A stretch of 64,000 nt of DNA from positions 1-64,000 of the forward strand of contig CALXLM010000048.1 in assembly GCA_944389195.1 (NCBI GenBank). Direction: 5' to 3'. The position numbers and the translations under genes were made by a program. The notes below the pieces were generated by a model, which was not told where the DNA came from, ran no database searches, and worked only from the letters and a program-made list of their open reading frames with translations. Source of the DNA: an uncultured Opitutales bacterium. GTDB lineage: Bacteria; Verrucomicrobiota; Verrucomicrobiia; Opitutales; Intestinicryptomonadaceae. Of this stretch, positions 15,712-20,981 are shown piece by piece (the stretch's first letter is position 1; every line of letters starts with the position of its first letter).

Positions 15712-15741
15712 TTGAAATATGGAAACGCTTTGTGATAGAAA
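15712..15741 (+). promoter_or_regulatory. Candidate promoter of the exopolysaccharide pair
   Basis: TTGAAA (15712-15717) and TAGAAA (15736-15741) are 18 bases apart. Eight bases then lead to the ATG at 15750. Each box has 4 or more matches to consensus. The position again predicts a leaderless message. Confidence 0.4.
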
Positions 15742-15749
15742 ATACGGAT

Positions 15750-16346
15750 ATGATTAAATTTGCCAGATTTCAGCTTTTCTTTGCGGGATTGCTATTTGCG
15801 GCGTTTTCGGTTTTTGCGGCCAACGCAAACTATACGAAAAACTCCCTTTATAAATTGCGCCCCCTCGATGTTTTAACGATAAAAGTTTTTCAGGAGCCCG
15901 ATTTGGATACCGTTTACAAGGTAAGCCAAAACGGCATGATAGTGCTACCGCTCATAAATGCTGTGAAGGTTTCGGGTTTAACCGTTCAGGAGGCTCAAAA
16001 GCTTATTAAGGAACTTTATGAAAAAGATTATCTTGTAAATGCGGACGTCTCCATATTCATTTCCGAATACTCTCCGCAGCGCGTGTATGTCATCGGACAG
16101 GTAAACAGGCCGGGAGAGGTTGTTTTCCCGCCGGAGGAGACGATGACGCTTTCAAAGGCGATTGCCGGCGCTTCCGGAACCACGCGCCTTGCCAATTTGC
16201 GCTCCATAAACGTCAAGCGTTTGCTCTCGAACGGCGAAGTGAAGGTTTTTGAGGTGGATTTCCGTGCCATATTAAACAACGACCAGGCAAAGGATTTTCC
16301 AATCTACGAAGGCGACACTATCGAGGTTCCGGAGGCCATGTTTTAA
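15750..16346 (+). CDS. Polysaccharide export protein (Wza/GumB family)
   Basis: The product is about 198 residues from the ATG at 15750; an in-frame GTG at 15732 would add six residues before the signal peptide and is less likely. After the signal peptide comes the poly-export domain (YKLRPLDVLTIKVFQEPDL, then VSQNGMIVLPLINAVKVSGLT) and an SLBB-type domain (VYVIGQVNRPGEV). These proteins form the outer-membrane channel for capsule or exopolysaccharide. There is no lipobox cysteine, so this is a shorter, non-lipoprotein form than E. coli Wza. The Wzc-like kinase follows 85 bases downstream. No glycosyltransferases accompany the pair, so the biosynthesis genes must lie elsewhere. Confidence 0.88.
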   Translation: MIKFARFQLFFAGLLFAAFSVFAANANYTKNSLYKLRPLDVLTIKVFQEPDLDTVYKVSQNGMIVLPLINAVKVSGLTVQEAQKLIKELYEKDYLVNADVSIFISEYSPQRVYVIGQVNRPGEVVFPPEETMTLSKAIAGASGTTRLANLRSINVKRLLSNGEVKVFEVDFRAILNNDQAKDFPIYEGDTIEVPEAMF

Positions 16347-16387: not shown

Positions 16388-16431
16388 GGCGTTTGCATAA
16401 TTTAAAATTTTAAATCGAATTCTTTTGCATT

Positions 16432-18822
16432 ATGGAAAGCGACGAAAACAACGAACAAAAACCGCACATTCAGCCGGATCCGCAAGGCCAGCCCAAGACG
16501 GTGAAGAAAAAGAAAGTCATTGTCGGCGGAGGCGGATATGGATACGGCGGCGCTTACGGCGGCGGATACGGTAGTTATGGCAATTACGGCGGTTATGGCA
16601 ATTACGGCGGTTATTACGGCAATTACGGCGCGAGGGTTCCAGAGATGGGCGCCGGCAGCGGAATACCGAACCGCACATTCCGCGATTATATGATGATTTT
16701 GAGGGAAAGGATATGGTATATAATCGTAACCTTTTTCGTTATTTTCGCCGGCATATTGCTTTATACTTTTAGAATGACCCCCATTTATACGTCGGTTGCC
16801 ACCGTGCAGATTTTGAGGGATTCCGATGTCCCGATCGACGGTCCAGGCGGCGTGCAAAGGAGCCGAAACGAAATGATTGCTTCCACCGAGGACTTCAATA
16901 CGCAGGTAAAACTGATGGAGAGTTTGGAAGTTGTCAGCGCCGTCAGGGCAAGGCTTAAGGACGAAGACATTAAGCGTCTGATGAATCCTTACAATGATAT
17001 GATAACTTTCGGACCCAAGCGTACCGAAATGGAAATTCTTCAGGAAAACAGGTCGATTGTCCCCGAAAGGCTGGCGCTTATAGTAAGGGTGGTGTTCAGC
17101 CATCCAGACGCCCAGTTGGCGGCAAAAATAGCCAATCTTTTCGCCAGCGAATACATATCGTACACCCATCAGGTGAGGGTCCAAAAGTTGATGAACTCAA
17201 TAGACGAACTTCGCACAAAAGTTTCCCAACAGGAAGCGAAGGTCAAGGAGCTCGACAAGAAGTTGGTGGAATACAGGAAGGAGCACGGCGCGGTGTCTCT
17301 CGACCAGATCGACGACGTTGACCGCAACGAGTTGCGCGATATCAACGCGATCTTGACGAACGATAAGAGGGTGTTTGATTCGATGTCCACACAATGGGAT
17401 CTCGTTCAGGAATACAAGCGAGAGAATAAGGACTTGTGTACTCTGCCTTTTATAGCCGAAATATATTCTGTTTCGAAGCTTGTCACCGATAAATCCACCC
17501 AGCAAGTCGCTGTAGCTACGCTTGAAAAGCGGTACAAGGAAAAACATCCGCGCATGATAGAGGCCCGCAAGACGCTCGACCAGCTGGAGAAGGAGCTTTC
17601 GATGGCTGTCGAGGCGGCCTGCGCAAAGGTCCAGGCAGGGTATGAAAACGCGAAGCAGAATTACGAGCAGACCCAGAAGCGCCTAAGCGTGAAAAAGGAA
17701 GAGATCCTTCAGCTCGGACAGAAGGCTATTGTGTATAAGTCGATAGAGCGCGAACGTCAGGTTGCTGAAGGCATGCACCAGTCTTTAATTTCTTCTTTAA
17801 ATGTCCGCACAGCCCAGGTAAGTCTTATAAACGAAGGCGCGAACATTGTTGACAGGGCGGGAATATCTCCGCGCCCGTCCAGTCCGAATTATGTTTTGAA
17901 TATAATATTTGGAATTTTTGCCGGCATAGCCGGAGGCATCTGCATGGCCTTGCTTGTGGCATTCTTTGACGACCGCGCAAAGAGCGCCTACGACGTCGAA
18001 TCTGTGATAGGCCTTCCGCTTTTGGGCGTCATACCGAGAATCAAAAGGTTGAATTCGTCGGAGAAGGCGCAGGTTGCAGCATCGAACGCCGACAGGGCCA
18101 CAACGGAGGCGTTCCGCTCGCTTTATTCCACGCTCAAGGTCAATTCTCTAAGCAAGAGCGCCAAGGCGATATTGTTTACAAGCACGACTCCTTCCGAGGG
18201 GAAATCTTTTGTGGTGACAAATCTTGCCTTTACATGCGCGCTTAATGGCGAGAAGGTAATAATAATAGACGCCGACTTGCGCTTGCCTGCCCTTGCGAAA
18301 ATACTCGGGATTAATGTAAAGGAGGGGCTGGTAAGTTGCATAGAGGAGGGCAAGCCTCTCGAGGACGCAATAATACGCGATTATTTCCCGAATCTCGACG
18401 TGCTTGTATGCGAAAAGCGCGCGGCGAATCCCACGCAGATGCTGAATTCGGACGAGTTTATATCCCTCATATCGTCTTTGCGCGACAAATACGACAAAAT
18501 ATTTGTCGATTCCCCGCCGATAGGGGCCGTAAGCGACGCAATATCGCTATTGCCGAATATGGACGGCATAATTTACATAATCAAGTTTAACGTGGCAAAG
18601 AGGAAGGTCGTAAGAAATTATGTCCGTAGAATGATGGAGGCCAACGTTCCGGTGTTCGGTGCGGTTATGAATATGGTGAACTCGAGCGTGTCGTCCACAT
18701 ACAGCCTAAATTATTACGATAAGAATTACCAGAGCTACTATTCCGCTCCGCCGGATACTGAGCCGCGCGGCGACGAACACGGCGGAGAGGGGCTTGACGA
18801 GGAGGCTCCCAAACATTCATAA
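16432..18822 (+). CDS. Wzc-type bacterial tyrosine kinase / chain-length regulator
   Basis: The 796-residue protein combines a Wzz/GumC periplasmic domain with a cytoplasmic BY-kinase. Transmembrane helices lie near residues 95-113 and 490-515, with the periplasmic coiled coil between them and a proline-rich segment (PRPSSPNY) before the second helix. The kinase shows Walker A TPSEGKS (about 583-592), Walker A' IIIDADLR (about 610) and Walker B FVDSPP (about 690). The C-terminal tail has the expected tyrosine cluster (YSLNYYDKNYQSYY, about 760-775) for autophosphorylation. Unusually, the cytoplasmic N-terminus before the first helix is a low-complexity Gly/Tyr/Asn segment (residues 31-66, 11 tyrosines) preceded by a lysine cluster. 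It works with the upstream export protein to control polysaccharide polymerization and export. It starts without a Shine-Dalgarno sequence. Confidence 0.9.
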   Translation: MESDENNEQKPHIQPDPQGQPKTVKKKKVIVGGGGYGYGGAYGGGYGSYGNYGGYGNYGGYYGNYGARVPEMGAGSGIPNRTFRDYMMILRERIWYIIVTFFVIFAGILLYTFRMTPIYTSVATVQILRDSDVPIDGPGGVQRSRNEMIASTEDFNTQVKLMESLEVVSAVRARLKDEDIKRLMNPYNDMITFGPKRTEMEILQENRSIVPERLALIVRVVFSHPDAQLAAKIANLFASEYISYTHQVRVQKLMNSIDELRTKVSQQEAKVKELDKKLVEYRKEHGAVSLDQIDDVDRNELRDINAILTNDKRVFDSMSTQWDLVQEYKRENKDLCTLPFIAEIYSVSKLVTDKSTQQVAVATLEKRYKEKHPRMIEARKTLDQLEKELSMAVEAACAKVQAGYENAKQNYEQTQKRLSVKKEEILQLGQKAIVYKSIERERQVAEGMHQSLISSLNVRTAQVSLINEGANIVDRAGISPRPSSPNYVLNIIFGIFAGIAGGICMALLVAFFDDRAKSAYDVESVIGLPLLGVIPRIKRLNSSEKAQVAASNADRATTEAFRSLYSTLKVNSLSKSAKAILFTSTTPSEGKSFVVTNLAFTCALNGEKVIIIDADLRLPALAKILGINVKEGLVSCIEEGKPLEDAIIRDYFPNLDVLVCEKRAANPTQMLNSDEFISLISSLRDKYDKIFVDSPPIGAVSDAISLLPNMDGIIYIIKFNVAKRKVVRNYVRRMMEANVPVFGAVMNMVNSSVSSTYSLNYYDKNYQSYYSAPPDTEPRGDEHGGEGLDEEAPKHS
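16579..16614 (+). repeat. Two exact 18-bp in-frame tandem repeats in the kinase gene
   Basis: GGCAATTACGGCGGTTAT occurs at 16579-16596 and again at 16597-16614, each encoding GNYGGY. Degenerate copies flank it. Because the unit is a multiple of three, slippage would lengthen or shorten the Gly/Tyr segment without a frameshift. Confidence 0.8.
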
Positions 18823-18998: not shown

Positions 18999-20981
18999 AT
19001 GAGTGGAGAATTTATGCATCGTTGGAAATTTTTTAAGGCTGGAAGTTCCTACCAGGTTTCGATAGACGCCGCCGACGACATTAAAAACATAAGATTTTTA
19101 GACAAAAAGCTGTGGTCGGCGCTTGCGTGCCCGACCTCGGGTTTGGCGTTTGACACCAAGCTTCTTAAAGCTTTGGACTCGGACGGCGACGGAAGAATAC
19201 GACATGCTGACATAGTAGGGGCAGCAGAGAGGCTCTGTTCGTCTTTGAAGGACGTCTCAGCGTTGTTTGAGGAGTCGCCTTCGCTGCCGCTTTCAAACAT
19301 AAACGACGAAACGGACGAAGGCAGGACTCTTTTGGCGAGCGCACGCACGGTTTTGGAAAACATAGGAAAAGCCGGCGCGAACGAAATATCCGTCAATGAT
19401 TTTTCCGACACGGCAAAAATTTTTGCCGACAGCGCATTTAACGCCGACGGCGTTATCACGGAGCTTTCATGCGGAGGCGACGATTCCTTAAAGGCGCTTT
19501 TTTGCGATATTTTGTCGGTATCGGAACCGAAAATCGACAGATCTGGGAGGGCGGGAATTGACGCCGGCGACATCGTGAGCTTTTTCGAACAGGCCTCGTC
19601 CTATATTTCGTGGCTGGATAAAAAGGCCGAAAATCCGGGGATTTCGCCTTTCGGCGACGAAACAGCCGGCGCTTACGGGATTTATATTTCGGTAAAAGGC
19701 AAGATAGAAGATTATTTTATCCGTTCTGAGGCGGCGCGTTTCGATCCCGATGCTGCTGCTGCAGTCAATGCCGGTGCGGAACGCATTTCAAAGGTGTTTG
19801 AAGGGCTGGTAAGCCGGTCGGACGAGAATCTTAAAAGCCTTCCGGCTGCGCGGATTTCGGCGGACGGAACGCTCGATCTTCTCGGGGCGGTAAACCCGGC
19901 ATGGGAGGGGCTTTTTACCGAGGCATGCGGACGTTTTATCGTTCCGGTTTGCGGAACATCGAAGATAACGGCTGCCTTGTGGAGTCGCGTGGTTGAGGCA
20001 TTTGCCCCATATGAGAAATGGGCGGCTGCCCGTCCAGAATGCCGAGCGGCGAAGATTCCGGAGGAGCGTCTGCGCCTGATTCTTTCGGAAAACAAGATGG
20101 ACGCCCTGTTGTCCGCCGTGGCTGCCGACGCCGCGGTGGCGGCGGAGGTTGAGGACATTGAAGACGTGGAGGAGCTCGTCAGGCTGAATAAGAGTTTTTG
20201 CTCGCTTCTTCGCAATTTTGTGAGCTTTCAGGATTTCTACCGCAACAGCGCCGGGGCCATATTTCAATTTGGCAGCCTTTACATAGACAGCCGCAAATGT
20301 TCCCTTTGCATGAAAGTCGGCGACGTATCCAAACATTCGGCTATGGCGGCCCTTTCATACGGTTATTTGCTTTATTGCGCTTGCAAGCGGAAGGGCGAAT
20401 CCGACATGAATATCGTAGCTGTTGTCACGGCGGGCGATTCCGACAATCTCATAGTCGGGAAAAACGGAATATTCTACGACCGGGCAGGGCGCGATTGGGA
20501 CGCTACTGTCGTTAAAATAGTTGACAACCCCATAGGGATAGCTCAAGCGTTCTTTTCGCCGTACAAGCGGCTTGTAAAGTGGGCGAGCGAGCAGATTGCC
20601 AAACGGGCCCTTTCTGCCGACCGTGATATAGTTTCGGACATTCAAAAGGGGGCAGTTGTTGACGATAAAACAAAGAAAATAGATATCGGAACCGTTGCGG
20701 CTTTGGGCGTAGCGGTGGGGGGGATTACCACGGCGTTCGGTATAATATTCGGGGCGTTTGTAAAGCTTGGGGTTTGGATGCCTCTGGGCGTAGCCGGGAT
20801 AATTTTGGCTATATCGCTCCCTTCGGTGGCCATTGCGGCGATGAAGCTCGGTCTTAGAAACATTTCCCCGATTCTCGACGCCAACGGTTGGGCGGTTAAC
20901 AGCAAGGCAGGCGTCAATATGGTGTTCGGCGCGCGCCTGACGCAAACCGCGCGCCGGCTTGTCGAAGGCGGAAAAGACTGA
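18999..20981 (+). CDS. Uncharacterized EF-hand protein with C-terminal membrane helices
   Basis: I do not recognise a named family for this 660-residue protein. Near residues 62-74 it carries a canonical EF-hand calcium loop, DSDGDGRIRHAD, with Asp at positions 1, 3 and 5, Gly at 6 and Ile at 8. A second, looser candidate is FNADGVITEL near 150. The long middle is acidic and mostly helical, with cysteines near 430-435 (SRKCSLCMKVG). Two hydrophobic helices lie near residues 567-590 and 595-620, followed by a short basic tail. There is no signal peptide, so the bulk is probably cytoplasmic and membrane-tethered, but the topology is inferred. It stands alone between a terminator and a convergent HAD gene. 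Confidence 0.75.
   Translation: MSGEFMHRWKFFKAGSSYQVSIDAADDIKNIRFLDKKLWSALACPTSGLAFDTKLLKALDSDGDGRIRHADIVGAAERLCSSLKDVSALFEESPSLPLSNINDETDEGRTLLASARTVLENIGKAGANEISVNDFSDTAKIFADSAFNADGVITELSCGGDDSLKALFCDILSVSEPKIDRSGRAGIDAGDIVSFFEQASSYISWLDKKAENPGISPFGDETAGAYGIYISVKGKIEDYFIRSEAARFDPDAAAAVNAGAERISKVFEGLVSRSDENLKSLPAARISADGTLDLLGAVNPAWEGLFTEACGRFIVPVCGTSKITAALWSRVVEAFAPYEKWAAARPECRAAKIPEERLRLILSENKMDALLSAVAADAAVAAEVEDIEDVEELVRLNKSFCSLLRNFVSFQDFYRNSAGAIFQFGSLYIDSRKCSLCMKVGDVSKHSAMAALSYGYLLYCACKRKGESDMNIVAVVTAGDSDNLIVGKNGIFYDRAGRDWDATVVKIVDNPIGIAQAFFSPYKRLVKWASEQIAKRALSADRDIVSDIQKGAVVDDKTKKIDIGTVAALGVAVGGITTAFGIIFGAFVKLGVWMPLGVAGIILAISLPSVAIAAMKLGLRNISPILDANGWAVNSKAGVNMVFGARLTQTARRLVEGGKD

Follow-up and report, generated by a model that had tools for sequence, protein, structure and literature searches.

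A conserved Gly/Tyr-rich N-terminal arm on Wzc-type tyrosine kinases of Opitutales and its possible role as a second tyrosine array

The window, a 64,000-nucleotide stretch of DNA from an uncultured Opitutales bacterium, encodes a Wzc-type polysaccharide co-polymerase with a tyrosine kinase domain, in which a Gly/Tyr-rich segment precedes the first membrane helix (Table 1). A preliminary description of the DNA had pointed out this segment as an addition to the C-terminal tyrosine cluster, and both are indeed present, with 11 Tyr in residues 31-66 and six in residues 757-770. Comparison with relatives indicates that the tract is a conserved module, ruling out a local repeat accident. We tentatively propose that the arm is a selected, disordered N-terminal segment whose tyrosines act both as stickers and as phosphate acceptors that tune assembly of the kinase ring, a reading that we hold with slightly less than even confidence.

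Table 1 Features of the kinase locus in the window.
Feature	Position	Strand	Basis
Gene directly upstream, for a 204-aa wza-like short OPX protein with Poly_export and SLBB domains	15732..16346	+	PF02563, E 5e-21
Wzc-type polysaccharide co-polymerase with BY-kinase domain, 796 aa	16432..18822	+	Pfam Wzz, TIGR01007, PDB fold matches
Basic cluster VKKKKVI preceding the tract	16501..16521	+	lineage-specific K/R triplet
Gly/Tyr-rich arm with 11 Tyr in aa 31-66, predicted to be disordered	16522..16629	+	composition, pLDDT, orthologue conservation
18-bp tandem repeat within the tract	16574..16630	+	Tandem Repeats Finder: 3 copies, 92% matches
Predicted helices: alpha1-like (aa 83-92), first membrane-spanning (aa 94-114)	16678..16773	+	AlphaFold2; Pfam Wzz from aa 85
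Kinase motifs: Walker A K591, D613/D615/R617, D693-P696	18196..18519	+	invariant or nearly so in 108/108 orthologues
C-terminal tyrosine cluster, aa 757-770	18700..18741	+	6 Tyr: Y757, 761, 762, 766, 769, 770

Profile searches identified a Wzz-type chain-length domain beginning at residue 85 of the kinase (PF02706, 33.4 bits against a Pfam cut-off of 25.5) and a match to TIGR01007 (128.8 bits against an NCBIfam cut-off of 108.05). The AlphaFold2 model, built with 33 sequences in the alignment, had a mean pLDDT of 76.5 and a pTM of 0.39. A fold search of the PDB returned E. coli Wzc chains as the top solved structures (E 7e-26), and the model and these matches together place membrane helices around a periplasmic domain, as expected of the Wzc type. 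Walker motifs A, A' and B are all present, and the corresponding alignment columns are intact in all 108 orthologues, while Y761, Y766 and Y769 of the C-terminal tail are invariant among the 33 sequences. Searching the bacterium's own genome with the full-length kinase gave a single match, and an antisense open frame at 16402-17184 was rejected as a mere shadow of the kinase coding frame. The protein is of a known kind (PCP-2/BY-kinase), with a real and conserved extra module whose function we infer.

Like E. coli Wzc (7NHR, 9R62), which supplied the top fold matches, the window's protein has a Wzz domain, two membrane helices, periplasmic helices, a BY-kinase domain with Walker motifs and a C-terminal Tyr tail. 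Whole Wzc chains superpose with a query-normalised TM-score of only ~0.3, the periplasmic part or domain arrangement being either different or poorly modelled. In the E. coli protein the N-terminus is short, with alpha1 at residues 17-30 (excerpts of PMC8285477), whereas in the window's protein about 80 residues, including the Gly/Tyr arm, precede that helix. S. aureus CapA/CapB shows the same kinase fold and motifs (4jmp and 4jlv, TMt 0.92), but the CapB kinase lies on a separate chain, according to the same excerpts (PMC8285477). The kinase domain of V. cholerae VpsO, the best match by sequence, likewise shares the fold and motifs. CapA/CapB and VpsO differ from the kinase described here at the third Arg of the EX2RX2R motif, which is conserved at the ring interface of Wzc/CapB (excerpts of PMC3795738). 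In the window's kinase (18106-18126, residues 559-565), E559 and R562 are present and the third position is Y565. Of the 108 orthologues, 99 have His or Tyr at this position, and the 17 same-order paralogues compared all have Tyr; as read from the alignment, the ring interface of the kinase has changed throughout the order. The idea that the arm compensates for the degenerate motif was rejected, since these 17 paralogues share the change and have no tract.

The arm contains 19 Gly and 3 Asn besides its 11 Tyr in 36 residues, and few Lys or Arg lie within it. At the Tyr frequency of the rest of the protein (3.6%), the binomial chance of finding at least 11 Tyr is 3e-8 per stretch of this length. 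Residues 1-80 were predicted to be unfolded (pLDDT <50), in line with the disorder that the preliminary description had suggested looking for, and are directly followed by a helix at residues 83-92. The predicted disorder and the evenly spaced aromatic residues are features shared with phase-separating low-complexity domains. Nothing comparable was found among 8,529 stop-to-stop frames of at least 60 aa in 1.07 of the 2.37 Mb of the genome, window included: the kinase tract peaks at 21 Gly+Tyr per 24 residues with 7 Tyr, the runner-up frame reaches 16 with 2 Tyr, and the next reaches 11. A 46-aa segment of the tract, searched against the whole genome, matched only itself. A DNA pattern for G-Y-G-G-Y-G found no match in the genome because the window's tract does not itself contain that exact series. 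No relatives were found among viral contigs.

Relatives were collected from 54 genomes (44 with a match), from a scan of named genomes (best 80 of 349) and from two wider sets, 141 genomes at class level and 240 at phylum level; loci in these wider sets are best matches only, with 40 further places picked by hand, mostly non-orthologues. Retrieval used a profile that included the tract, while classification and tree building used the core only. Fragments and matches cut at contig ends (G053, G018) were left out. In all, 155 non-redundant core domains were compared, with locus L134 (G139, broken frames) dropped from the tree, and a tract was called where any 24-residue segment before the core held at least 9 Gly+Tyr and at least 3 Tyr.

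By this rule 106 of the 108 non-redundant orthologues carry the tract, versus 4 of the 47 other proteins, which answers the call in the preliminary description for conservation among Opitutae homologues. Raising the cut-offs to 11/4 and 12/4 left 106 and 104 of the 108 orthologues, and the 4 of 47 unchanged. Orthologues form a clade with SH-aLRT support of 100 in the core tree, on which the tract label changes 4 times, compared with a mean of 39 for shuffled labels. Five orthologue-range proteins from the 54-genome set, fetched later and outside the tree, all carry the arm. Where both an orthologue and a paralogue had been fetched from the same genome (13 genomes), 12 of 13 orthologues and 0 of 13 paralogues have the tract, a contrast that controls for genome-wide composition. 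Named members of the clade, among the best 80 of 349, are Coraliomargarita, three Cerasicoccus species, Opitutus, Lacunisphaera and strain Marseille-Q1082. Retention in nearly all relatives suggests that the arm probably does a job.

The N-terminus ranges from 30 to 103 aa across orthologues and from 81 to 103 aa within the genus, with its last Tyr 2-17 residues (median 11) ahead of the core; many orthologues have short, minimal arms with 5-6 Tyr. Close homologues thus keep the arm and vary in its length, as the preliminary description had anticipated, armless close relatives and a constant length being what it had named as evidence against its proposal. The orthologue at locus L128 is reduced to 3 Tyr, and L105 (1065-3239) is the only one without any Gly/Tyr arm, although a wza-like gene still lies directly upstream. 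A frameshift hiding the L105 arm was rejected: none of the three upstream frames encodes a Gly/Tyr stretch and the wza-like gene ends just before the kinase, so the loss looks real. Taken together, L105 and L128 indicate that the arm is not indispensable. The KKKK cluster noted next to the tract does exist, as VKKKKV, but it lies outside the conserved feature: only 16 of the 108 orthologues have a K/R triplet in the N-terminus, and 15 of these belong to the window's family (L001-L017), making it lineage-specific.

Some loci in the set were unusual in themselves. At L134 (G139:C6:286312-290238) the kinase frame is split in two, with part of its Gly/Tyr tract translated out of frame as an Ala/Val/Thr-rich stretch between Gly/Tyr ends, which suggests indel errors or a decaying gene. 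L090 and L109, on contigs labelled Cryomorphaceae and Sulfuritalea, encode Opitutales-type kinases nested within the orthologue clade, and these contigs are probably misbinned. An apparent 200,335-aa open frame after the kinase of L004 (G010:C1) is an artefact of a run of N (masked or gap sequence).

Outside the orthologue clade, Gly/Tyr-rich N-termini were found at L171, L172 and, more weakly, L173, from other families of the phylum, and at L132, from another order of the same class. L171 and L172 (G319, G291) carry their tracts on deeply diverged BY-kinases beyond the window's class. Common ancestry of the L171-L173 arms with those of the orthologues was neither demonstrated nor rejected (AU test, p 0.086, 47-row subset); a single origin of all arms has to be read against the 4 label changes that the 155-row tree needs.

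Directly upstream of the kinase, on the same strand, a wza-like homologue was found at all 106 loci with enough sequence (2 of the 108 were too short), in 103 cases by the gap rule and in 3 as an overlap of 28-48 bases between stop-to-stop frames. At the three loci examined with Pfam (L048, L051 and L102), a BBP2_2 outer-membrane barrel gene lies just upstream of the wza-like gene, an arrangement that would fit a composite OPX/barrel exporter (excerpts of PMC9601211). At the window's locus a short OPX protein adjoins the kinase, with no adjacent beta-barrel; the one BBP2_2 match lies on contig C42. The excerpts of PMC9601211 on composite OPX/beta-barrel systems contained no mention of the arm. 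Further along the window, 18999-20981 (+) encodes a 660-aa protein that had no Pfam or NCBIfam match at E 0.01 and contains, by eye, a calcium-loop-like DSDGDGRI stretch. It occurs in 12 of the 28 genomes searched (its own included), all from the window's family and at other genomic places. The kinase loci of the relatives showed no homologue of it, the relatives' copies being far away or on other contigs, which by gene order puts 18999-20981 outside the kinase unit.

No fixed motif is kept in the N-termini of the orthologues; what is kept is composition (Gly 31%, Tyr 17%, Phe 0.3%, Trp 0), the 108 N-termini containing 998 Tyr against 19 Phe and 1 Trp. The same bias marks the acceptor tail at the C-terminus, recognised in 104 of 108 orthologues, with 17.7% Tyr and 0.6% Phe, in contrast to the Tyr-majority columns of the core, where 240 Phe stand beside 2121 Tyr. 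This exclusion of Phe, common to the arm and the phospho-acceptor tail, favours a Tyr-specific role for the arm, short of proof. Kinship being ignored, Tyr residues are spaced more evenly than in shuffled tracts (mean z -1.6 over 104 tracts, 46% of which fall under the 5th percentile) and adjacent YY pairs number 69 versus 253 expected. Gly directly follows Tyr 728 times in the tracts, and the median net charge of the N-termini is 0. Tail Tyr counts have a median of 8 in both orthologues and paralogues, so the arm does not appear to replace the tail acceptors.

The cytoplasmic helix alpha1 of E. coli Wzc rests against alpha23, where the Tyr tail has its base; the tail tyrosines reach the active site of the neighbouring subunit, and the octamer is disassembled by successive phosphorylation (excerpts of PMC8285477 and PMC11986026). 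The helix at residues 83-92 was equated with alpha1 by its order in the chain and the Wzz match from residue 85, the profile alignment starting just after the helix. By analogy, the arm would lie in the cytoplasm immediately before alpha1, whose packing at the tail base would tether it near the active sites, and an eight-membered ring would bring tens of extra Tyr beside the kinase sites; octamer formation and a cytoplasmic N-terminus are taken here from homology. The arm tyrosines could then serve as a second set, open to phosphorylation and making weak Tyr-Gly contacts, at once sticker and acceptor. In the unphosphorylated state the tyrosines would help keep the ring, or clusters of rings, together; phosphorylation by the same kinase would loosen these contacts and so overlay a graded control on the assembly cycle known for polysaccharide export. 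Conservation, predicted disorder, chain position, Tyr specificity, even spacing and intact kinase motifs were all computed here; phosphorylation of the arm and its effect on rings or clusters are inferred. A single low-molecular-weight Tyr-phosphatase gene in the bacterium's own genome counts in favour of this reading. Against it, regular spacing can also arise from slippage, and the sequences compared, being related, lack independence.

That the tract is low-complexity sequence without function, tolerated and maintained by replication slippage, would account for the exact 18-bp repeats of the window's tract (16579-16596 and 16597-16614, which are identical, as first described), for its variation in length and for the complete natural loss at L105. 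Nevertheless, comparison indicates that the tract, at first described as built from tandem repeats, did not arise mainly by tandem slippage: just 12% of 106 orthologues contain an exact 18-mer repeat, and third codon positions are at equilibrium with each genome. Four-fold core sites are only 21-58% identical across eight genus members, all of which keep the tract with 11-19 Tyr, and the tract persists across the order although synonymous sites saturate. Gly-codon GC3 averages 0.567 in the N-terminus versus 0.569 in the core (Spearman 0.67, n=106 orthologues). Near-randomised four-fold sites and codon usage that follows the genome suggest that amino-acid composition is under selection and that slippage merely adjusts length: the composition appears old and held by selection, while the length is mobile. 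Together with paralogues that lack the tract and the lack of anything similar in 1.07 Mb of the same genome, these observations rule out a slippage artefact and make a functionless expansion very improbable.

Other functional readings share the selected arm. Its Tyr-Gly-Ser-Asn low complexity could act purely through stickers, driving self-association or membrane clustering of export machines with the arm unphosphorylated, as the even Tyr spacing with mostly Gly flanks, the zero median charge, the predicted disorder and a grammar recalling Tyr-based low-complexity domains such as FUS would allow. The likeness to FUS-like domains, a matter of resemblance, extends to Tyr as nearly the sole aromatic residue and to Gly/Ser/Asn spacers, but the arm is bacterial, short and tethered to a membrane kinase. 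The 5-6 Tyr of minimal arms would provide few valences, and a generic aromatic sticker should admit some Phe, which is nearly absent; Tyr-only stickers, for their part, are known to exist. We regard this reading as rather unlikely. Alternatively, the tyrosines could bind a partner (a phosphatase, a flippase or polymerase, or a glycosyltransferase that starts synthesis) and so bring it to the kinase ring. The position beside the ring and the strict neighbourhood with the wza-like gene agree with docking, and an arm conserved in one orthologue group and missing from the paralogues possibly has its own partner. Defined docking usually involves a conserved linear motif, however, and no aligned motif beyond Gly-Tyr composition was found in N-termini of 30-103 aa; docking seems quite improbable. 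The phospho-switchable arm, an order-wide second N-terminal Tyr array setting ring assembly or export-machine clustering, with a similar arm having arisen or persisted elsewhere in the phylum, remains our working proposal, at odds that we put a little short of even.

To our knowledge, BY-kinases have been described with a single C-terminal Tyr tail as the regulatory acceptor. Searches of open-licence papers listed none that describes a Gly/Tyr arm at the N-terminus of Wzc-type kinases, and within the literature searched the arm was previously unremarked. The natural variants, with one loss, one reduction and arms of 3 to 19 Tyr, render its role directly testable. If the proposal is true, a second, ancient Tyr array at the anchor of the tail would change the view of how assembly of the export machine is controlled, and the arm would provide a clean bacterial example of selection acting on a Tyr-only low-complexity segment that has its own built-in kinase as a switch.
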